Source: Clostridiales bacterium | GTDB lineage: Bacteria; Bacillota; Clostridia; Christensenellales; DUVY01 | Direction: 5' to 3' | Length of the DNA: 37,046 nucleotides | Assembly: GCA_012840805.1 (NCBI GenBank) | Contig: DUVY01000078.1 | Span: 1-37,046 of the forward strand | Notes under the pieces: generated by a model | The model's input: only the letters and a program-made list of their open reading frames with translations | What the model was told of the DNA's origin: nothing | The model's database searches: none | Part shown: positions 6,470-36,203 of the stretch, piece after piece | Numbering within the stretch: position 1 is the first letter of the stretch | Layout: every line of letters begins with the position of its first letter | Made by a program: the position numbers and the translations under genes

Positions 6470-6730
6470 ATGACTGAAGGCGCCAACAAAAGAGGAATGA
6501 AATCGGTCTTAAGAAAAATTATAAAAGGCAAAAGCGCGGGTGCGCAATCTACCGCTAATGGTTCTCTCACCGCAAAAAAAAGCGCCGCCGCGATAATGAG
6601 CGCCCAAGACGAAATACCTTTCGCGTGGAAAGGCGATGTATTCGCGCGAAGAAAAGGCAAAAGGTCGTCTTATAGATTAATAAAAAAAATAACCAACCAA
6701 ATCAAGCCCAAAACTTCCAAAAACGATTAA
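6470..6730 (+). CDS. Small, strongly basic protein of unknown function (86 aa)
   Basis: The ATG is preceded by AGGAGA at proper spacing, which is the main reason to accept this gene. The protein is hydrophilic, without membrane segment or signal peptide, and unusually rich in Lys and Arg (a K/R-rich beginning, an Ala/Ser-rich middle, then WKGDVFARRKGKRSS and a lysine-rich end). Nucleic-acid or ribosome association would fit that composition but is only a guess. Its stop overlaps the stop of the convergent lipoprotein gene at 6727. The opposite frame (6415-6660) has no ribosome-binding site. It could still be a chance frame. Confidence 0.55.
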   Translation: MTEGANKRGMKSVLRKIIKGKSAGAQSTANGSLTAKKSAAAIMSAQDEIPFAWKGDVFARRKGKRSSYRLIKKITNQIKPKTSKND

Positions 6731-24811: not shown

Positions 24812-27247
24812 TTATCTTTCCAATATGGCTGTAATTTTATGAATTTTGTTATCTTTAAAACTAGGAATTATATTTCCTTCTATTTTTTGACCGTCCACGA
24901 TAAGATTTTTAACGCCTTTGCATAGCTTTTGCGGGTTTTTAACGGTAATTTCGTATACCGCGTTTTGATAGTGTCTAACTACCGTATATTCCTCAAAATC
25001 TTGCGGTATGCAAGGGTCTATTTTTAAGCCCTCATATTCGGGTCTTATTCCCAAAATGCTTTGTGTAATCGCCACAAAATTCCACGACGCCGTGCCCGTA
25101 AGCCAAGAGTTTTTGGCTTGACCAAAGTTTTTGGCATCAGGACCCGCGATCATCTGTGAATAAACATAAGGCTCGGTTTTGTGTATATCGCTTTCATCTT
25201 CCAAATACGCCGGGCAAATGCGCTTATAAGACTCAAATGCTTTGTCGCCCCTGCCTATAGCGGTTTCGCCCATCATAATCCAAGGGTTGTTATGACAAAA
25301 GACCGCGGCGTTTTCTTTATATCCCGGCGGATAAGACGATATCTCGCCAAGATGTAGATAATACTTAGTATAAGCGGGCTGCACTAACACAAAACCGTAT
25401 TTTGTGGCGAGATATTTCCAAGCGCTGTCTAGCGCGCGTTTTGGATAACCCATATCATTGCCTATAAGCGCCATAGAGCCAAAACCTTGAGTTTCTATAA
25501 AGATTTTGCCCTCTTCATTTTGTTTAGAGCCCACAGGATTGGAAAAGGCGTCATACGCTCTTAGGAACCATTCGCCGTCCCAACCATATTTTATAATCGC
25601 TTGTTCCATTTTGGCGATTTCGGTTTCCACCAATTGAGCGTCTTCTTCTAAGTTATATTTTTGGCATAGCCTTAGATAATCTTTGCCTATATATACCGCC
25701 ATACAAGCGATCAAAACGCTTTCGGCTTTGTCGCCGCCTACATTTTCGGTCGTTTGAAAACTCTCGTCGGGATTTTTAGAAAAACAATTTAGATTTAGGC
25801 AATCGTTCCAATCGGCTCTTCCAATCAAAGGCAAACCGTGCTCGCCTAGATTGCCTACAACTTTGCTAAACGCCCGCCTTAAGTGCTCGTGCAAAGGCGT
25901 AACAAGTTCGTGATTGTTGTCATAAGGCACTAGCTCGTCCAAAATAGTATGGTCGTCGGTTTCCCTAAGATAAGCGCAAACCGCCAATATAAGCCAAAGC
26001 GGGTCGTCGTTAAAATTGCCGCCTATATCGTGATTGCCTTTTTTGGTCAAGGGCTGATACTGATGATAGGCGCCCCCGTCAGGAAGCTGGGTAGAGGCAA
26101 GGTCAATAATGCGTTGACGGGCTAGATGCGGAATTTGATGCACAAACCCCAATAAATCTTGCGAACTATCCCTAAAGCCCATACCTCTGCCTATGCCGCT
26201 TTCAAAATACGATGCGCTTCGCGACATATTAAAAGTAACCATAACTTGATATTGATTCCATATATTGACCATACGGTTTAATTTTTCATCGTGGCTTGTC
26301 AAATAAAATTTATTAAGCAAACCGTCCCAAAATTCTTTTAATTTGTTTAACTCTTGCGTTATTTTTTGAACAGTATTAAGCTTTTCAAGCGTTTCTTTGA
26401 CGGGCGCTTTGTTTACTTTTCCGTCTATCCATTTTTGTTCTTCGGGCAATTCAGCGTAACCCAAAACAAAGATAAAATCCTCGCTGGATTGGGGCGCCAA
26501 CTCAACTTCTATATAATGCGAAGCAATAGGCGACCACCCCGAAGCCAATGATTGATAGCTTACGCCTTCGCTCACCGTCCGCGGACAGTCAAATCCGTTA
26601 TAAAGCCCCAAAAATGTATCCCTATCGGTATCAAACCCGTCAATATCGGAAATGGACGCGTAATAAGCGTAATGATCGCGTCTTTCGCGATATTCGGTGA
26701 TATGATATATTACATTATCCTCAACTTCCACTTCGCCCGTAGAAAAATTTCGTTGAAAATTGGTCATATCGTCGTAAGCGTTCCACAAACAAAACTCTTC
26801 CAAAGTCCAAATTTTGATTTTTCTTACAGTGTCAGTATTATTGGTTAAGGTCAAATGCTGAACCATAGCGCTTATATTCAAAGGCACAAAATAAACAACT
26901 TTAGCCTGTAGTTCGTCTTTGGATGAAGTTATTTTAGTATATCCCAGGCCGTGACGGCATTCATAGCTGTCAAGCTCGGTCTTGAGCGGTTTCCAGCCGG
27001 GCGACCAGACCGTATCGCCGTCTTTTATGTATATATAATTGCCCCCGTCGTCAATAGGGACATTATTATATCTATACCGAGTAATACGGCGAAGCCTGGC
27101 GTCTTTATAAAAACTATAACCGCCAGCGGTATTGGAGATAAGGCTAAAAAAATCTTTGGTTCCCAAATAATTAATCCACGGATACGGAGTCTTGGGCGTT
27201 GTAATCGCGTATTCTTTGTTGTTGTCGTCAAAATAACCAAATTTCAT
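24812..27247 (-). CDS. Cellobiose phosphorylase (GH94)
   Basis: The enzyme splits cellobiose with phosphate to glucose 1-phosphate and glucose in the cytoplasm. The N-terminal run [16 protein letters not shown] followed by [40 protein letters not shown] and [17 protein letters not shown] are hallmark cellobiose-phosphorylase segments. [11 protein letters not shown] contains the catalytic Asp (Asp482). The ATG at 27247 has AAGGAG upstream and gives 811 residues, the usual length for clostridial enzymes; the codon before it is a TTG without its own site. It starts 11 bases after the stop of the other GH94 gene, so the two form an operon. The glucose 1-phosphate made would go to the phosphoglucomutase or GalU. 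Confidence 0.95.
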
Positions 27248-27258
27248 CAAAATACTCC

Positions 27259-30186
27259 TTAAACAAGAATTTCCACTCTAATATTTTTTTGGTTTAGGTC
27301 AAGGGGTATCGCGCCCTTATGTTCTTTGCCGTTTAATTTTATGATTGTGGCGTCGCTTACGCGGCAAAAACCTTTTTTGCTCTTTTTTATTGTTATATCA
27401 AATTGACAGCCGCGAATTTTCAAAGTAATATCGGCGTTGTCCATACTCTTTAAGAGCATAGGATTAAGCTCAATACCCTCGGTCGTGACATTAAGCCCAA
27501 ACATCTCAAACAATGTCAAGGTAAGCCAAGACGCCGTGCCCGAAACAATAGGCCCTACGTTTTCATTGGTTTGAGAATTATTGTATTGGGTGCAAAATCT
27601 CGGATTGCCTTTAAGAACAAAAGGATTTTTCAAAGTCTTATAGGGCAAGACTCTGTCAAGCATATATTCGCACAGCTCTGTCAATTCATTTGCCAATTCT
27701 TCGCTTTTTACTTGTTTGGCGGCTTGCAGCATCGCACAGGTCGCCATCATTGTAGCGTGTTTAAACACGCCCCCGTTTTCGCGATCGCCCGGGAAATAAT
27801 GCCCGCTTGCCGTGCCGTAAGCCAATCTTTCTAAGTCGGCGAGCGTGTTAAGTTTTAGGCCCGCCTCGGTCATAAGATATTTTTTGATAGGGTCAAGCAT
27901 AGTTTTGATTTGGTCTTCGGTAGCTGTTTGAGACAAAATAGACCAGCTAAACGAGTTAAGAAAATATGTGCCGTCAATATTAGGGTCGTTGGATAAACCG
28001 TCGCCTTTGGCGCCCAGATATGTATATTTGCCGTCTTCAAAGCGGTTAATCATAACACGCGCGAAGAAATCGCCTTTCCACGCTTTTTTGTGCGCGCCTT
28101 CTCTTAACCTGTTAAGCAAAGATTGCAAATATTGGGCGTATTCTTGGTCATTAATCTTTCTAGCCAGTTGCAAAGTATAATCAACCGTTATTATAAGCAA
28201 GAACAAATTCATTACGCTTTCGCACAAGTCGTTCTCAAAAGGAACGCCGTAAGGCTGTCCTTTGGCTTTTAGTTGCTCATAATACAGCTTTTCTTTGGTC
28301 GGACCGTCCAGCCAATTATCGTCTAATTTTAGGCAGTCGTTCCAATCGCTTCTATCAAGCAGGGGAAAACCATTTTTGCCAATGGATATTTCGCCGCTGT
28401 ATTGAATAATCGCTTTTAGCGTTTGATACAAGGTGCGCCTCTTATCGCTAGCGGCAATTTTGCATTCTTGATTCAAAAAGTCAATATCGCCCGTTAGCGT
28501 AATATATCTATAAACCGCGGGCGCTAGCCACAGCCCGTCATCCGAGCAAATGCCCGGCTCTTTTCCTTTCCAAAAAAAGTTATGGTTGGCGTAACCCATT
28601 TCATACACATTATTGGCCCATTGCGTAACCAATTCCCTAATTAATTGGGGGTTGTCCATCGCCGCCATATAATACATAGAAGCGTAAATGTCTTGAATTT
28701 CCCTAAAGCCAATTTCCCTAAAGCCTTTTTGCGTTTGGGCGAAAGAACGCGACACAAAAGTTTGATACAGCGTTTGGAAAGGCAGGTTATTGTTAAGATA
28801 AGCGTTTAGATTGGGCTCGTCGGTATTTACTTGCAGATACGACGAAAAATTGCGATAGAAAGCTTTGACTTTATCAAACATAGCGCACCAAAAATCAGGC
28901 TTTATAATCTCGTCCAATAACGCGCCCACTTGCTCGTCAAAAAGTTGATTAATCTTTTCTTCGCTCTCATTGCCCTTGCAAGATACAGCGCCCGTATAAA
29001 CATCTATATTAATTTCGTCATTGGCTTTGACGCCAAAAGACTTGCCTAGCGCGAAAAAAGCGGGACCTTTGGTATTGTGCTTACAATTCAAAAAATTAAG
29101 ATTTTGCGGATACTCGATAGAGCCTTTTCCTACAAAGGCGGTATAATCCGCGCAGAACTCGTCAAAATATTGACCTTGGCAACTTAAGGTAACAAACCTT
29201 TTGTCTTCTTTAAAATAACTAGGATAATAGTGCGACGAAAAAGCAGCCAATTTATTGTCTTTATATATGGTTTCGGATTCCATTATAACGGTAGAATACA
29301 CCACATCGGTAACCAGGGCCTGTTCGGCAGGCGTGCCAAATATACCGGTAAAGACAATCTTTAGATTTCTATCTTGATTTAGAGTATTCTTTACGACAAT
29401 GCGTTGAGTTTCTATGGCTTGCGGCAAGCCTTTAATTTGGGGGACTATAAATATAGTATTGGTTATCTCAAGTCCGCATTTGGTTTTGTATGTTATAACA
29501 GTATGATTTTGGCTATGAATACAATGTCCTCCCTCAAGAGTATTTACATCGGCGGAATAAAAGATTCTCTTGCCGTCTTCTATTATATAAAATTGTCTAT
29601 TGACGGGATTGCCGTTTTCCTCGGGGCGCATATCCCATCTTGCGGCGGTAACCTGCGTGGCGGAATGCGATCTAAAAGAACCTCTTCCCAGCCAATCAAC
29701 CACGGCCTTGGGAGTGGTTTGCAGGGGATACTCATATCCAATCCTGTTGCCCAACAAAAGATTGACCGCAAAGTGCGGCGAAATAGGCGGAACGGTAATA
29801 TCAAAAATATGCTCGCCTTTTTCATTTAGGCGCCCGCCAAAATTTTGGGCTCTGTTAGCGTAATAAATAATTTTTAGCGCGATCTCGGCGGGGAGTTGAT
29901 TTTCTTTTGAGCCCGAAAAGTGTCTTACAAAATCATTTTCAATTATAAAAAGATTGTCATAATCCTTATACCCATTAATATATGATACTAATAGGCGATC
30001 GTTTAGTATAAGCGCGACAACGGGACATTGAAATTTTAATCCGCTTACGGCAATTAATTTATCGCCCGCTATTTGAGCGTCAATGCCGCCTTTTAACAAC
30101 TCTTGGTCAAACCTATCTTTACAAATGTCATAATTGGAAGGAAAAATTCCCAAAAATTCTCTAGCCGTTTGTCTTTGGATATTCAT
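27259..30186 (-). CDS. GH94 glycoside phosphorylase, cellodextrin-phosphorylase-like
   Basis: This 975-residue GH94 enzyme has a long N-terminal domain, ending around the [20 protein letters not shown] region, the beta-sandwich, and an (alpha/alpha)6 catalytic domain. [12 protein letters not shown] carries the presumed catalytic Asp617; [16 protein letters not shown] lies near the C terminus. Length and the CLKLD variant suit cellodextrin phosphorylase (about 980 residues), which shortens longer beta-1,4-glucans by one glucose as glucose 1-phosphate. Beta-1,3 or beta-1,2 specificity is not excluded. The ATG at 30186 is preceded by AAAGGAG (12-base spacing). The frame could extend to a TTG at 30237, but that would translate through an operator. 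It is first in the operon with cellobiose phosphorylase. Confidence 0.85.
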
Positions 30187-30212
30187 AAAAAAATCATTCT
30201 CCTTTACCTCAA

Positions 30213-30226
30213 CTAAAACGATTAAG
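30213..30226. promoter_or_regulatory. Putative LacI-family operator O1
   Basis: ctaaaacgattaag is a 14-base palindrome of the form CTnAAnCGnTTnAG, centred on CG as is usual for LacI-family sites. It lies in the 5' leader of the leftward GH94 operon. Confidence 0.6.
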
Positions 30227-30269
30227 TTATCGCGCAAAAAAATTTAAAATAATACAAGTTATTGCTAAA

Positions 30270-30283
30270 TTTAATCGTTTTAT
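30270..30283. promoter_or_regulatory. Putative LacI-family operator O2
   Basis: tttaatcgttttat matches the same palindrome except at its outer bases. It overlaps the predicted start point of the leftward GH94 transcript, a position suited to repression. Confidence 0.55.
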
Positions 30284-30285
30284 AT

Positions 30286-30314
30286 ATAATAATATAAGCA
30301 AAAAATAATGTCAA
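30286..30314 (-). promoter_or_regulatory. Promoter of the GH94 operon
   Basis: On the minus strand a perfect TTGACA (plus-strand 30309-30314) is followed after 17 bases by TATTAT (30286-30291). Transcription would start near 30279, inside operator O2, about 93 bases before the start codon. Confidence 0.6.
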
Positions 30315-30359
30315 GATAAAAAAAGAACAAAAATACTATAAATTTTTAGTCAAAACCTA

Positions 30360-30388
30360 TTGACAAGCGCAAATTATAATGCTATAAC
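30360..30388 (+). promoter_or_regulatory. Promoter of the sugar ABC transporter operon
   Basis: A perfect TTGACA (30360-30365) and TATAAC (30383-30388) are 17 bases apart, with TGC before the -10 (extended -10). The start point would be near 30395, giving a leader of about 110 bases. Confidence 0.7.
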
Positions 30389-30398
30389 TATTATAGTG

Positions 30399-30412
30399 CT
30401 TAATCGTTATAG
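30399..30412. promoter_or_regulatory. Putative LacI-family operator O3
   Basis: cttaatcgttatag fits CTnAAnCGnTTnAG with one mismatch. It begins a few bases after the predicted start of the rightward transcript, where a bound repressor would block RNA polymerase. A second small palindrome, ctataa/ttatag, covers 30382-30396. Confidence 0.6.
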
Positions 30413-30464
30413 TTAAGCGCGCGATTAAATATTTTAATTAGTTTTAAAAAAAAAAGTTTTAAAA

Positions 30465-30484
30465 AAAATGACGCAAGTCATTTT
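30465..30484 (+). promoter_or_regulatory. 5'-leader hairpin with GCAA tetraloop before the sugar-binding protein gene
   Basis: aaaatgac (30465-30472) and gtcatttt (30477-30484) pair perfectly around GCAA, a GNRA-type tetraloop. It ends about 10 bases before the aggagga Shine-Dalgarno sequence. It may protect the mRNA end or tune translation; it has no T run and is not a terminator. Confidence 0.55.
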
Positions 30485-30504
30485 AAATAAAATAGGAGGA
30501 AGAT

Positions 30505-32004
30505 ATGAAAAAAAGATTACCCGTTCTACTGCTAGCTTTGGCTATGGTCTTTTCTTTTTCGGTTACGATGTTTGCTTGCAAACCCTCGGAAGAAGGTCCT
30601 GGCGGAACAGCTAAGAAAAAGCTAGTAGTTTGGTCAATGTCCAACGAAGTAGTTGAGCTGTTGAATTATCACAAATTAGCTAACCCGGACTACGAGTATG
30701 ACTTTGACATTACCTTTATCAACAACGACGACGGTAGCTACGAAGCGGCTCTTGACAACGCTTTCTCATCCAAGAAGGGCGGACCTGACTTGTTCTTGAC
30801 CGATGTGGACTACACCAAAAAATATGTAGATAGCGACCATACTGTAGATTTGACAAAATTTTATGATTCAAAAGGCACTTATGATTCCGTAAGAGATGCT
30901 CTTGAAGAAGACATGTATGGTTACACATTGGATATAGGAACAAGAGTAGTAGGCGAAAAGAAAGAACTAAAAGCTGTTTCGTTCCAAGTCACTCCGGGCG
31001 CTATGTTCTATCGCGCTGATATGTTCCTAACGCTTATTGACAATGGCTTGCTAGAAGGCGAAGAAGAAGAAGGCGTAGAAAATTTTGACGCATGGAAGGA
31101 AGCTGTAGACTTAGATGAAAGCGCTACATTAGCCAATTATAAAGATTGGTCCGAAAACGATAAACAAAAAGTTGACCAAGCTATGCAAGAATTTGTCGGC
31201 GACGATATGGATAAGTTTAAAGACGCCGCTAAGGCTATCGCAGAATGCGCTTATAATGAAGAAAAGGCAGAAACCAAGAAAATCTTGATGGTCAACAACC
31301 TAGAAGACATCAAGAGAGTATTCTACGCTCAGCGCGACGCCTTTGTCCAAGACGGCAAAGTAGTCATTGACGAAAACATCTATGGATTATTTGAATACGC
31401 TAAGGAAATCTATCCTCTCACCCATAAGGGCGATCAATGGGGCGACAGCTGGAATGCTGGTATGAAAGCGAAGAATGATGATGATGCCGAATACAAGACC
31501 ATGGCGTTCTTCTTGCCTACTTGGGGATTGTTCTATGTTCTTCAGAACGACGATACAGCTGGTCTTTGGAGAATGATTGAAGGTCCTCAAGCTTATTATT
31601 GGGGCGGCACTTACTGTATGATCAGCAAGTATGCCGATGCCGATAAGCAAGAAGCCGCGTTTGATGTTCTCAACTTCTTGACATCGTTGCCTTTCTTCCA
31701 AGCTCGCGCGGGATTTGCTGGCGATGTTATGAACTCAAAATCTCTCAACGCAGCATTGGCAAGTATGGATATTTTGGGCAATCCTTTCTTGGGCGGACAA
31801 AACCACTATGCTACATTTAACACATTGGCTGACGCTATTGACGCTTCCAATGTCACCAAATACGACTCCACGGTTGACCGCGTTCTCGCCGATGTTATGA
31901 AGAGATACGCTGCGGAAGATATTGAAGAACTTGACGATGCTTGGGATGAAGTTGTAGACAGACTAAATTCAGACCTTGATATGGACGTTGAATTACCATC
32001 ATAA
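30505..32004 (+). CDS. Sugar ABC transporter substrate-binding lipoprotein (family 1)
   Basis: A signal peptide with lipobox MFAC (Cys25) predicts a surface lipoprotein. The 499-residue protein has the family 1 extracellular solute-binding layout: KKKLVVWSMSNEV strand at the start, GGPDLFLTDVDY, a MAFFLPTWGLFY block and YYWGGTYCMISKYADADKQEAAFDVLNFL toward the end. Such proteins catch oligosaccharides for import. The neighbouring GH94 and GH5 genes suggest cello-oligosaccharides or related beta-glucans (inference). AGGAGGA precedes the ATG. The gene uses more C-ending codons (AAC, TTC, GAC) than its neighbours, a sign of high expression, and a very stable hairpin separates it from the permease genes. 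Confidence 0.92.
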   Translation: MKKRLPVLLLALAMVFSFSVTMFACKPSEEGPGGTAKKKLVVWSMSNEVVELLNYHKLANPDYEYDFDITFINNDDGSYEAALDNAFSSKKGGPDLFLTDVDYTKKYVDSDHTVDLTKFYDSKGTYDSVRDALEEDMYGYTLDIGTRVVGEKKELKAVSFQVTPGAMFYRADMFLTLIDNGLLEGEEEEGVENFDAWKEAVDLDESATLANYKDWSENDKQKVDQAMQEFVGDDMDKFKDAAKAIAECAYNEEKAETKKILMVNNLEDIKRVFYAQRDAFVQDGKVVIDENIYGLFEYAKEIYPLTHKGDQWGDSWNAGMKAKNDDDAEYKTMAFFLPTWGLFYVLQNDDTAGLWRMIEGPQAYYWGGTYCMISKYADADKQEAAFDVLNFLTSLPFFQARAGFAGDVMNSKSLNAALASMDILGNPFLGGQNHYATFNTLADAIDASNVTKYDSTVDRVLADVMKRYAAEDIEELDDAWDEVVDRLNSDLDMDVELPS

Positions 32005-32017
32005 TCTAAGCTTTACA

Positions 32018-32061
32018 TTTGTAAATATAGCGGGTTTTGAAAAACCCGCTATATTTACAAA
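32018..32061 (+). terminator. Long intercistronic hairpin between binding protein and permease genes
   Basis: Bases 32018-32038 and 32041-32061 are an almost perfect inverted repeat of about 20 pairs (core atagcggg/cccgctat), followed by a run of T. It can terminate most transcripts after the binding-protein gene or protect its mRNA, giving more binding protein than permease. Confidence 0.8.
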
Positions 32062-32116: not shown

Positions 32117-33097
32117 ATGTTAAGCTCATCTAACATTGGCAATGTGTCAAATTTTGATACAAAGACCCAAAAAGCCAAAAAGATTAAAAGTATTAGTTAC
32201 AGAAAATACGGGTATTTTTTTGTAACGCCGTTTATCTTGTTCTTTTTGATGTTTTCTTTATATCCTACGCTTTATACTTTTATAATAAGTTTTACCGATA
32301 GATCGGGTCTAGACCCTAATGTATTTGGAAATTTTGTTTGGTTTGACAGTTACAAAAGTGTTGTTGGGGATAAATTCTTTTGGAGATCTATTTTAACCAC
32401 TCTAAAGATTTGGGGCGTTAATGTTACCTTGCAGTTTTTGTTCGCTATCGTGCTCGCGGCAATATTTAACGACCAAAGCCTAAAGATAAAAGGGCAAGGG
32501 ATATTTAAGTTTGCTTATTATTTGCCCAATATTGTCACGGCGGCTACGGTCGGTTATATATTTAGGCAATTATTGCAACCATCGGGAACGATTAACACGT
32601 TATTAGTGAAATATGTTGATGGTTGGGTAAGAAAAAACTTTATGTTGGAAAAAGATATAGTTCAACTTTCGGTTTCTTTGGTTTTGACTTGGATATGGTA
32701 TGGCAACACTATGATTGTTTTGTTAGCGGGTATGGCAGGAATTGACCCCACATTATACGAGGCGGCCAGAATAGACGGCGCCGGCTCTGTCAAGCAGTTT
32801 TTCTATATAACTTTGCCATTATTAAAGACAATATTGTTATATGCCTTTATAACCAGTCTTGCCGGCGGATTGCAGATGTATGATGTCCCGTTCTTCTTCG
32901 TGCCCACTAGCCATACTCAGACGGTGGCGATTAGAATTTATCAATGGGGCTTTACGGGCGTTAACCATTACGGCAAAGCGGCTGCGGCGTCTATAATAAT
33001 GTTGATTATAACAATGCTCATAAGCTCGGTATTATTCTGGATAATGAGCGTTGATGTTAGTTCTACCAAAAAGTATTCAAAGGCTAAAGGGGTGTGA
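32117..33097 (+). CDS. Sugar ABC transporter permease, MalF type
   Basis: The 326-residue membrane protein has a basic cytoplasmic N terminus, about six helices, and the MalF-type coupling motif EAARIDGAGSVKQFFYITLPLLK (shown here as EAARIDGAG followed by FFYITLPLL). It would form half of the channel for the oligosaccharide bound by the preceding lipoprotein. AGGTGA precedes the ATG. The following permease begins two bases after its stop, so the two are translationally coupled. No ATPase gene is present, as in many Gram-positive carbohydrate importers that share an MsmK/UgpC-type ATPase encoded elsewhere. Confidence 0.92.
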   Translation: MLSSSNIGNVSNFDTKTQKAKKIKSISYRKYGYFFVTPFILFFLMFSLYPTLYTFIISFTDRSGLDPNVFGNFVWFDSYKSVVGDKFFWRSILTTLKIWGVNVTLQFLFAIVLAAIFNDQSLKIKGQGIFKFAYYLPNIVTAATVGYIFRQLLQPSGTINTLLVKYVDGWVRKNFMLEKDIVQLSVSLVLTWIWYGNTMIVLLAGMAGIDPTLYEAARIDGAGSVKQFFYITLPLLKTILLYAFITSLAGGLQMYDVPFFFVPTSHTQTVAIRIYQWGFTGVNHYGKAAAASIIMLIITMLISSVLFWIMSVDVSSTKKYSKAKGV

Positions 33098-33098
33098 T

Positions 33099-34001
33099 AT
33101 GGAACAACAAGCAGCATTGACTCCTTTGGAGCTATCAAAACTTTTAAGAGAAAAAAGAGAAAGACGCGAAAAAATAATTCGCGGCGTAATAAAAGTATTT
33201 ATATACATAGGTCTGATTATATTATTCTTAATCAGCATATTGCCTTTTTATGTGGTTTTGGTAAACGCTACTAGATCTACTTCTGAATTGCAAGTGGATT
33301 TTTATTTAACGTTTGGCTCGCATTTATCAAATAATCTTGAATGGCTAAAGAAACAAAATGTTGATTTTGTGAGCGCGTTTTTAAATAGCGTGTATATATC
33401 CGCGGGGGCAATCTTTTTGTCCGTGTATATTTCATCCTTAACGGCGTATGCCATAGTCGTGTATAACTTTAAGCTAAAAAACCCAATCTTTATATTGGTC
33501 TTGCTGTTAATTATGGTGCCTACCCAGTTAAGCGTAGTAGGATTTTACGCGTTAATACACGGCATTGGTTTGTATGATAACATATGGGCGTTTATCTTGC
33601 CCGCGGGCGTAGCGCCGACCACGGTGTTTTTTATGCGGCAATACATAGTCGCTAATATTCCGCTAGACTTTATAGAGTCGGCTAGAATTGACGGCTGTAA
33701 GGAGTTTTGGATATTTAATATCATTGTTTTGCCTTTGTTATTGCCGGCATTAGCCACTATGGCGATATTCTCTTTGATCGCGTCTTGGAACAACTTCTTT
33801 ATGCCTAAGATAATATTATTGAGCAAAAAGAATTGGACGCTGCCTGTTTTGATGGACAAACTAAAAGGCGATATATACAGACGCGAAATTGGACCGCTAC
33901 ATACGGCATTGGCGATAGCGATAGCGCCGTTATTGGTGTTTTACGCTTTATTATCTAGATATATAATAAAAGGAGTTGCGTTAGGGGGATTAAAAGGATA
34001 A
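33099..34001 (+). CDS. Sugar ABC transporter permease, MalG type
   Basis: This 300-residue protein is the second channel subunit. It starts with a charged cytoplasmic segment (SKLLREKRERREK), then an N-terminal helix ending in LPFYVVLVNATRS. It has about six helices in all and the coupling motif ESARIDGCKEFWIFNIIVLPLL. ASWNNFFMPKIIL near the C terminus is typical of MalG-type permeases. The ATG at 33099 is preceded by AAAGGGG; frames opening earlier lie inside the first permease gene. The lacI gene starts 54 bases later without a terminator, so regulator and transporter probably share a transcript. Confidence 0.92.
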   Translation: MEQQAALTPLELSKLLREKRERREKIIRGVIKVFIYIGLIILFLISILPFYVVLVNATRSTSELQVDFYLTFGSHLSNNLEWLKKQNVDFVSAFLNSVYISAGAIFLSVYISSLTAYAIVVYNFKLKNPIFILVLLLIMVPTQLSVVGFYALIHGIGLYDNIWAFILPAGVAPTTVFFMRQYIVANIPLDFIESARIDGCKEFWIFNIIVLPLLLPALATMAIFSLIASWNNFFMPKIILLSKKNWTLPVLMDKLKGDIYRREIGPLHTALAIAIAPLLVFYALLSRYIIKGVALGGLKG

Positions 34002-34055: not shown

Positions 34056-35060
34056 ATGGTTACTCTAAAAGATATTGCTTTAAAATGCGGTGTTTCGGTT
34101 GGCGCGGTAAGCAAAGCGCTTAATGACAGTCCAGATATAAGCGTTGAGACCAAACAATACATCAAAGAAACGGCGTCTAAGCTTGGCTACCGCCCCAATT
34201 TTTATGCCCGCACGCTAAAGACAAATCGCTCTTATAATATCGGCATATTATTTGACGACGATACTAACAACGGTTTTGGTCATGCGTTCTTTTCTAACAT
34301 TATGAGCTCGTTTAGAAGGGTAATGGAATTTAACGGCTATGACCTTACATTTATAGCTAGAAACTCTCAAGACAAATACACCTATGTTGAGCATGCGCGC
34401 CATCGCAGGCTTGAGGGCGTTTTGGTGGCTTGCGTGGACTATAACAATGACGACGGCATATTGGAAATATTAGAATCTGAGATCCCCGCTGTCGCGATTG
34501 ATTATATAAGCGACAAATTCGCGTGCGTCTATTCTGATAACTATAACGGGTTAATGAAGTTAGTAGAGCATTGTATAGAAATGGGTCACAAAAAAATAGC
34601 TTTTATTCACGGTCAGCATACATGCGTCACTGAGCAGAGAATAAAAGGCTACAAGGACGCTCTCCAAAAACACAATTTGCCATTTAGAGAAGAGTATTTG
34701 ATAGAGGGCGAATATTATTCAATAGACATTACTTATCAGAGGATGCGGCGGCTTATGAGTCTTCCCAACCCGCCGTCTTGCGTAATAATATCTGACGACT
34801 ATTGTATGTTTGGGGCTCAAAAAGCGGCCTATGATATGGGTTTATCTATTCCGTGGCATGTTTCTGTGGCGGGCTTTGACGATATCAGGATAGCGCCTTA
34901 TTTCTCGCCTCCGCTTACCACCGTAAGACAGGACGCGTTTTTGTTTGGCAAAACCGCGGCCGAGATTATATTATACGATATAGAAAAACGAACAAAATCA
35001 ACTCATAATATTGAAATACCAACAGAACTAATCAAACGGCAATCAATCAGAGAAATTTAG
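34056..35060 (+). CDS. LacI-family transcriptional regulator
   Basis: The 334-residue protein starts with a LacI-type helix-turn-helix: VTLKDIALKCGVSVGAVSKALN (recognition helix about 16-25), followed by LGYRPNFYARTLKT, the hinge region. The rest is a periplasmic-binding-protein-like sugar domain with AFIHGQ, RIKGYKDAL, DDYCMFGAQKAA, VAGFDDIRIAPYFSPPLTTVRQD and a FGKTAAEII end. It should bind the palindromes at 30213-30412 and release them when an oligosaccharide is present (inference from location and family). It probably belongs to the operon it controls, giving autoregulation. AAAGGT precedes the ATG. Confidence 0.93.
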   Translation: MVTLKDIALKCGVSVGAVSKALNDSPDISVETKQYIKETASKLGYRPNFYARTLKTNRSYNIGILFDDDTNNGFGHAFFSNIMSSFRRVMEFNGYDLTFIARNSQDKYTYVEHARHRRLEGVLVACVDYNNDDGILEILESEIPAVAIDYISDKFACVYSDNYNGLMKLVEHCIEMGHKKIAFIHGQHTCVTEQRIKGYKDALQKHNLPFREEYLIEGEYYSIDITYQRMRRLMSLPNPPSCVIISDDYCMFGAQKAAYDMGLSIPWHVSVAGFDDIRIAPYFSPPLTTVRQDAFLFGKTAAEIILYDIEKRTKSTHNIEIPTELIKRQSIREI

Positions 35061-35117: not shown

Positions 35118-36203
35118 ATGAAAAAAAGGATTTTTAGACTTTTTTGTCTTTTGAGTTTATTGTTTTTCGTGTTCTATTTTAACGCTTGTTCTTCTATAAC
35201 AAGAGTGGAAATACCTCAATCGGGCGTTAGCCGCAATGGAAGACTCAAAGTAATTGAAGACAAAGACGGCATAATGAGACTGGCTAACGAAAAAGGCGCT
35301 TTTATATCGTTAAGGGGAATGAGCACTTATAACTTTAATAGAGTAATCGTGGGAGAGGGTTCGCAAAATCTTCTTAACTCTAACGCGTTTTCGGCGTTGA
35401 GAAAAGATTGGAATTGCAATGTCATTAGATTGGCGGTTTATGTAAGAGCCGAAGATAATGGCTATAACGGAATGAAAGAACAGACTTTAAATAATATAGA
35501 CAAAGCTGTCCAATTAGCCACAGATAATGATATGTATGTGATTATTGATTGGCATGTTCTTAGTCCTGGCGATCCAACCGATGATGTTTATAAATACGAT
35601 GAGGAATTTTTTACTAATGTCGCCCAAAAATACGGCAAATCCAAAAATGTTATGTTTGAGATAATGAACGAGCCGCACAGCTATACGCTTAATGATCAAG
35701 ATTTTTGGACGCATATTAAGCCTTACGCTCAAAAAATGGTTAACCTGATTAGAAAATACTCCAAAAATATTATTATTATCGGCAATCCCTGTTGGTCTCA
35801 ACGACCCGATATATGCGCTCAAGACCCAGTAGAAGGCGAAAATTTGATGTATTCCGTGCATTTCTACGCCGGCAGTCACGGCGAAGAACTTAGAAATAAT
35901 ATTTTGGCGGCATTAGAAGGCAAAGTTGCTGTTTTTTGCACAGAATGGGGAACAACAACAAGTGACGGCGGACAAAGAGACAAAAAAATTTACGCGTCTG
36001 AGACTGATGTTTGGCTAGATTTTTTGGACGAACATAAAATAAGCTGGTGTAATTGGTCAATGGCAGCCAAAAGAGAGGCGTCCTCGGCGCTAAAGGTAAC
36101 TACGTCGCTCAATCCTGAAAAAGGCTATTGGGAAGAGGGCGAGATTTCGGAAAGCGGTCAGTATGTCCGAGCGCGCCTAAGAAGCTATAGCGACATAAAA
36201 TAA
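35118..36203 (+). CDS. GH5-family endoglucanase-like lipoprotein
   Basis: A signal peptide with lipobox FNAC (Cys24) predicts a surface-anchored enzyme of 361 residues. The catalytic module has the GH5 pattern: LRGMSTYNF at the start, NVIRLAVYV, VIIDWHVLSPGDP, the acid/base in FEIMNEPH (Glu185), HFYAGSHG and the nucleophile in CTEWGT (Glu276). WCNWSMAAKREASSAL near the end resembles GH5 subfamily 2 cellulases. It would cut cellulose-like or mixed beta-glucan to oligosaccharides for the ABC importer. No carbohydrate-binding or dockerin module is present. GGGGGA lies before the ATG. It follows lacI by 57 bases and is the last gene of the rightward operon. Confidence 0.93.
   Translation: MKKRIFRLFCLLSLLFFVFYFNACSSITRVEIPQSGVSRNGRLKVIEDKDGIMRLANEKGAFISLRGMSTYNFNRVIVGEGSQNLLNSNAFSALRKDWNCNVIRLAVYVRAEDNGYNGMKEQTLNNIDKAVQLATDNDMYVIIDWHVLSPGDPTDDVYKYDEEFFTNVAQKYGKSKNVMFEIMNEPHSYTLNDQDFWTHIKPYAQKMVNLIRKYSKNIIIIGNPCWSQRPDICAQDPVEGENLMYSVHFYAGSHGEELRNNILAALEGKVAVFCTEWGTTTSDGGQRDKKIYASETDVWLDFLDEHKISWCNWSMAAKREASSALKVTTSLNPEKGYWEEGEISESGQYVRARLRSYSDIK

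Follow-up and report, generated by a model that had tools for sequence, protein, structure and literature searches.

Two CG-centred palindromic sites in the divergent control region of a cellodextrin locus, O1 and O3, are proposed to be the operators at which a LacI-family protein (gene at 34056-35060, plus strand) binds; this protein would act as a local, autoregulated repressor of both divergent promoters. From the comparisons of sequences presented here we assign to this reading a probability of roughly 0.85. The locus is located in a 37,046-nucleotide stretch of DNA from a Clostridiales bacterium (contig DUVY01000078.1), which is referred to as the window. The control region (30187-30504) lies in between the start codon of a leftward GH94 gene (30186) and the start codon of a rightward solute-binding-protein gene (30505). 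O1 (CTAAAACGATTAAG; 30213-30226, plus strand) lies within the leader of the operon for cellodextrin phosphorylase, between about +54 and +67 of the leftward transcript, and O3 (CTTAATCGTTATAG; 30399-30412, minus strand) is placed just past the predicted rightward start at about +5 to +18. A further site, O2 (TTTAATCGTTTTAT; 30270-30283, minus strand), lies over the predicted leftward start and is regarded as a weak, lineage-specific candidate. An earlier note on this DNA had described these three sites, and their positions and sequences were correct, as was the placement of one of them in the GH94 leader. The claim that all three fit the palindrome CTnAAnCGnTTnAG holds strictly for O1 alone; O3 deviates from it at one and O2 at two positions.

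The gene content on both sides of the control region points to the use of cellodextrins. On the left side, the gene at 27259-30186 (minus strand) encodes a protein of 975 aa with Pfam GH94 domains, the nearest solved relatives of which are cellodextrin phosphorylases (E values down to 6.7e-287), and by similarity it is classified as a cellodextrin phosphorylase. It is followed after a gap of 8 nt by a second gene with a Pfam GH94 match (24812-27250, minus strand), the 812-aa product of which has cellobiose phosphorylases as nearest solved relatives. On the right side, all genes are encoded on the plus strand. The 499-aa solute-binding protein of a sugar ABC importer (30505-32004) is matched by Pfam SBP_bac_1 with 21.8 bits, i.e., under the curated cut-off of 26, and its sole solved match is the cellobiose-binding 8bfy, which is weak (E 0.00086). 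Next to it are the genes for ABC permease 1 (32117-33097; BPD_transp_1) and ABC permease 2 (33099-34001; BPD_transp_1, from 33123), the latter with a glucose ABC permease as top NCBIfam match, below the cut-off. The regulator encoded at 34056-35060 is a LacI-family protein of 334 aa with a LacI helix-turn-helix domain (PF00356, 44.5 bits, cut-off 27) and a Peripla_BP_3 domain (PF13377, 111 bits, cut-off 26.5), confirming that a LacI-family gene is part of the rightward gene set. Finally, a GH5 glycoside hydrolase is encoded at 35118-36203 (Pfam Cellulase, E 5e-59), and its gene adjoins lacI also in the two other genomes of the genus that were compared, G003 and G004. The gene identities by similarity, i.e., the phosphorylase pair, the ABC importer and the GH5 enzyme, back the role in beta-glucan/cellodextrin metabolism assigned before. 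The locus would thus serve the uptake and phosphorolysis of cellodextrins, which we infer to be its substrate.

Both divergent promoters were identified as matches to the consensus, and the start points are consensus predictions. The leftward promoter (30286-30314, minus strand; TTGACA-17-TATTAT) would start transcription at about position 30279, under O2, and the rightward promoter (30360-30388, plus strand; TTGACA-17-TATAAC) at about position 30395, 4 nt ahead of O3. A competing rightward match in the window, TTGCTA-17-TATAAT, would start at about 30297. The existence of divergent TTGACA promoters, as suggested earlier, is supported by the consensus and by TTGACA-17 counterparts in both relatives, in which the second hexamer reads TATGAT (G004) and TATCAT (G003) for the leftward promoter and TATATA in both genomes for the rightward promoter. 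In the alignment of the three species, 23 of 29 columns of the leftward and 19 of 29 columns of the rightward promoter are invariant. The geometry is conserved: in each of the three species the predicted starts place the first base of O1 at +54 or +55 and the first base of O3 at +5.

The pattern CTnAAnCGnTTnAG with up to two mismatches shows no excess in the window compared to shuffled sequences (16 found, shuffle mean 22.6), so that the claim of three sites was in need of other support. A scoring matrix constructed from 15 sites of class-level relatives, which is independent of the window's own sites, ranks O1 first, O3 second and O2 sixteenth among the 37,033 positions of the window. In 60 Markov-generated windows the mean count of positions scoring as high was 0.05 for O1, 0.6 for O3 and 11.2 for O2, and the top random site in these windows scored 20.0, slightly above O1 with 19.4. 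Moreover, the sites were compared within the genus, i.e., between the window genome, G003 and G004. In G004 the entire divergent region is present on a single contig; in G003 it precedes the phosphorylase gene, and part of it occurs again at the end of a second contig. In both genomes CTTAATCGTTATAG occurs exactly at the positions of both O1 and O3, and the spacing of the two sites is 186 bp in the window and 188 bp in each relative. Invariant columns in the three-species alignment amount to 13 of 14 for O1 and 14 of 14 for O3, and in the flanks to 7/26 and 12/43 around O1 and to 4/10 and 13/47 around O3. Furthermore, the DNA-contact parts of the LacI orthologues are identical over residues 3-25 and 42-57 in the three species. 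Judged by these alignments, O1 and O3 look like genuine sites conserved within poorly kept flanks, and this conservation supports for these two the earlier reading as LacI-type operators.

For O2, which had been presented as an equal third operator, 3 of 14 columns are invariant, and the site is kept in neither of the two relatives. It is an even bet whether O1 and O3 alone matter, with O2 being a chance match in the AT-rich start region. The rank of 16 in the window, with 11.2 equally good positions expected, suggests chance, as do the few columns kept and the lack of the outer C and G demanded by CTnAAnCGnTTnAG, both of which are present in all four orthologous sites of G003 and G004. However, O2 is identical to O1 at 12 of 14 positions and covers the predicted leftward start. 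In addition, the tightened motif CKWWAACGATTAAG, whose fourth position (W) was taken from the G003/G004 sites, has 82 matches with up to two mismatches in the genome, from which only about 0.015 matches would be expected per 318-bp stretch (80 matches besides O1 and O3, times 318/1,709,419).

The genome from which the window originates comprises 1.71 Mb (1,709,419 bp) on 231 contigs and is 93.9% complete. Exact matches of CKWWAACGATTAAG in these 1.71 Mb are O1 and O3, and none is present outside of the locus in the 93.9%-complete genome. With up to two mismatches, the motif is genome-wide rarer than its reversed control (48+34 vs. 64+68). Based on these counts, the regulon looks confined to its own gene cluster, i.e., local. 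The earlier note had envisaged a regulon of several loci, against which stand the lack of further exact CKWWAACGATTAAG sites and the degenerate forms being no commoner than the reversed-pattern controls. The genome scan it had proposed returns CTnAAnCGnTTnAG exactly at two places, O1 and C6:1459. The site C6:1459 (CTGAAGCGCTTCAG) was rejected as a member of the regulon, being located inside of a 113-aa reading frame. The degenerate pattern YTTAATCGTTWTAK is circular, having been derived from O1, O2 and O3; genome-wide it matches exactly just these three sites, and with up to two mismatches allowed it is not more frequent in the genome than its reversed control (154+124 vs. 177+160). One of its one-mismatch places is located in the window at position 6718. 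By eye, none of the 12 one-mismatch places outside of the window (L005-L008, L010-L017) is a promoter site; 11 of them fall within a reading frame of at least 90 aa or extend across the end of one, and L013 lies between two convergent frames. Similarly, the other GH5-like gene (L010) was rejected as a target: the best score in its upstream gap is 5.0 compared to 18.6 for O1 and 15.2 for O3, using a matrix that includes the G003/G004 site. In G003 and G004, CTTAATCGTTATAG with up to one mismatch has overall a frequency similar to that of the reversed control, with four and three matches compared to three and two; one of the four matches in G003 is the repeated contig end, and its one-mismatch site on contig C172 lies within a coding frame. 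Another exact CTTAATCGTTATAG in G004 (C48:3055-3068; L108) starts 22 nt past the end of an unrelated frame and has no evident target gene.

Two further LacI-family genes, and no others, were found in the window genome, on the contigs C190 (L037) and C125 (L038). The gene on C190 adjoins genes named by eye as 2-keto-3-deoxy-sugar aldolase-like and sugar kinase-like. It is highly improbable that the sites in the control region are cre-like and belong to one of these paralogues or to a CcpA-like global regulator rather than to the 34056-35060 protein. While the centre AAnCG is common to cre-type sites, as given in part of a published account (TGNAANCGNWNNCW; PMC5483248), and the paralogues are available as candidate binders, cre starts with TG and the window sites start with CT or CG. 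Moreover, many sites would be expected for a global regulator, and the exact CKWWAACGATTAAG sites in 1.71 Mb are just the two at the locus. Compared with the ccpA model, which has a cut-off of 442 bits, the paralogues score 167.8 and 208.9 bits and the 34056-35060 protein scores 124 bits. Finally, the motif accompanies homologues of the 34056-35060 lacI in other genomes.

Regarding the mechanism, a dimer of the 34056-35060 LacI protein bound to O3 without inducer would cover the rightward transcript start and thereby block initiation or promoter escape of a transcript for the ABC importer, lacI itself and the GH5 enzyme. A LacI dimer bound to O1 would stand about 54-67 nt downstream of the leftward start and act as a roadblock for the cellodextrin/cellobiose phosphorylase operon, and in this species O2 may add a block at the start site. 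The mode of repression is deduced from the position of the sites. Imported cellobiose or cellodextrin, the presumed inducer, would release LacI, and uptake and phosphorolysis would rise together. Repression and its release by a cello-oligosaccharide are proposed because of the LacI family membership and the gene content. Autoregulation of lacI would proceed via the rightward transcript: lacI is encoded on the same strand downstream of the rightward promoter, and a terminator-like hairpin of 20 pairs (32018-32061, plus strand), located between the binding-protein gene and the permease 1 gene, stands in between, so that co-transcription is presumed across it. This hairpin may raise the amount of binding-protein mRNA over that of the permease and lacI mRNA. 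At the orthologous binding-protein gene of G004 a similar hairpin is seen by eye at the same place.

A DNA loop between the sites, as suggested in the earlier note, would require one repressor tetramer bridging O1 and O3, and perhaps O2, silencing both promoters in a loop of 186 bp. Such a loop is unlikely. The site pair and its spacing are kept in the three species, and two sites are present in five of the six class-level GH94-lacI regions examined, which speaks for a loop. However, the alignment of the 334-aa protein with E. coli LacI (360 residues) covers residues 4-328 of the latter, at which point the window protein ends. The segment of E. coli LacI that forms the tetramer is C-terminal, beyond the core, and this C-terminal extension is absent from the window protein. 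Furthermore, the spacings of the paired sites in the class-level relatives vary from 132 to 337 bp and have no common helical phase at 10.5 bp per turn, and each site is readable as serving its own promoter.

The reading of O1 and O3 as operators of the local LacI protein was followed beyond the genus. A search of 391 class-level genomes with the LacI protein yielded 22 homologues besides the window's own at E values of at most 1e-65, one per genome, which are 36-44% identical to the window protein. After CG-centred palindromes had been seen upstream of some of these lacI homologues, the earlier pattern was widened to CKnAAnCGnTTnMG. This motif is present within 400 bp upstream of lacI in 14 of the 22 loci: the 8,426 upstream bases contain 24 sites, compared to a mean of 0.023 upon first-order Markov resampling, and elsewhere in the 83.7 kb of the 22 loci it does not occur. 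Eight homologues were unseen when the pattern was widened, and five of these carry the motif, all five from the dominant family. The site-bearing genomes are not independent, because 10 of the 14 belong to one family. The commonest form in the class, CGAAAACGATTAAG, is one base away from O1. Regarding the eight loci without a strict site, the upstream sequence is limited to 32 bp in one, four belong to a clade of their own that has another helix-turn-helix (TTVSKALND with the hinge ARALATS), and three (L072, L073, L087) plainly lack the site. In the tree, the join of the clade of the window's genus to the site-bearing clade is not firm (89/91).

The wider gene context was examined for 14 of the 22 homologues, with several contigs being short. 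These contexts (220.6 kb) contain 15 matches of the motif, which are distributed over 9 of the 14 loci and are all located in the 400 bp preceding lacI; a looser form gave three extra matches away from the upstream region of lacI. A cellobiose phosphorylase gene adjoins lacI in seven contexts. In six of them lacI is divergent from it and followed by genes for a solute-binding protein, a permease and another permease, and the phosphorylases are 59-62% identical to the cellobiose phosphorylase of the window; in L097 lacI is located upstream of the phosphorylase gene on the same strand. In four of the six GH94-lacI intergenic regions examined, the operator on the side of lacI starts 1 nt past a predicted start point, a placement that recurs within the class. 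In the seven contexts without a GH94 neighbour, in which some contigs are short, L103 has a binding protein and permeases after lacI, L102 a binding-protein match alone and L095 two weak permease matches, and in L094, L098, L104 and L105 lacI is the one query gene matched. A scan of named genomes resulted in 14 loci, one of which is G004 and the rest of which encode proteins of 24-31% identity; five were viewed for context and none was used for the motif. In G005, a member of the same family, one strict match (CGGAATCGTTTTCG; L053:3344) is found about 1.3 kb beyond lacI and a looser match inside of lacI. In G211, which is from the same order and encodes a cellodextrin phosphorylase with 48% identity, the looser pattern is absent in 18 kb. 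Neither of these two genomes speaks for or against the proposed operators.

As a broader view, which we put forward tentatively and at somewhat less than even odds, the Clostridia might contain a clade of cellobiose-linked LacI repressors with an operator code of their own, CKnAAnCGnTTnMG with CGAAAACGATTAAG as commonest form, used once per divergent promoter. In the genus of the window, lacI would have been relocated to the transporter operon and the operator sequence would have changed to CTTAATCGTTATAG, with the two operators kept. One operator would act as start-site block and the other one as roadblock at about +54, so that uptake and phosphorolysis would be repressed unequally. A name for such a cellobiose-linked LacI clade was not found in the text of the literature searched.

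In terms of known systems, a survey of 1,303 LacI-family factors describes, in the part considered here, palindromes of even length with CG at the centre, regulons of local scope and autoregulation as a common trait, with 72% of the factors autoregulated, nearly 90% local and about 20% of operons having more than one site (PMC4052901). O1 and O3 are even palindromes with a central CG in the three species, although imperfect ones. With the local regulators covered in that part of the survey the window shares the CG centre, the local regulator, the probable autoregulation and the presence of more than one site in a divergent region, and neither CTTAATCGTTATAG nor CKnAAnCGnTTnMG was met in this portion of its text (PMC4052901). 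LacI/GalR genes of Clostridium phytofermentans (cphy2742, cphy2467, cphy1883) have cre-variant operators upstream, which are kept in orthologues, and this related Clostridium resembles the window in having related yet distinct CG-centred operators upstream of LacI genes; the operator worked out in the part of that study considered concerns pectin, unlike the window (PMC5171806). GlyR3 of Clostridium thermocellum is similar to the window regulator in LacI family membership, beta-glucan genes, autoregulation and release by a disaccharide, but differs in its operator TGAACGCGCGTACA, in laminaribiose as inducer and in the targets celC-glyR3-licA, and a phosphorylase pair is not mentioned in the part of the paper considered (PMC5483248). 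GlyR2 of C. thermocellum has, according to the respective excerpt, another operator and other targets than the window (PMC8457756), and the cellobiose phosphorylases of C. bescii are described in a further partial text as being preceded by a motif of direct repeats, the factor for which is unknown (PMC8579813). The mixed-linkage glucan locus of the gut Firmicute Blautia producta combines, as far as the text seen describes it, a GH94 phosphorylase, an ABC importer and a regulator in a similar manner, but the regulator is AraC-type instead of LacI and a GH16 enzyme is present (PMC10318527).

The window motif was not found in the literature text searched, which does not prove its absence from print. 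Among the C. phytofermentans genes, cphy2467 would be the first to compare with the motif, given its gene neighbourhood. The site pair of the window would represent a new, comparatively well-supported case of the ordinary LacI switch type, which leaves general ideas on LacI regulation unchanged. It provides a concrete and cheaply testable candidate pair of regulator and operator for the use of cellodextrins in an uncultured lineage of Clostridia, and from the motif it may be possible to predict the LacI genes in the class that control cellobiose phosphorylase.

Two further elements of the control region are conserved. A perfect inverted repeat, AAATGAC-4-GTCATTT (30464-30485, plus strand), immediately precedes the ribosome-binding site of the gene for the binding protein and is likelier a hairpin of the mRNA leader than an operator. 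An exact copy is present nowhere else in the three genomes, except where a contig end of G003 repeats this region. The hairpin is kept in G003 and G004 with an altered loop, and the z-scores of the fold are -4.5 to -6.4 in the three species. Moreover, the stretch of 45 bp that separates the two -35 boxes (30315-30359) is kept in 37 of 45 columns in the three species, and the A/T tracts therein suggest UP elements or an activator site.
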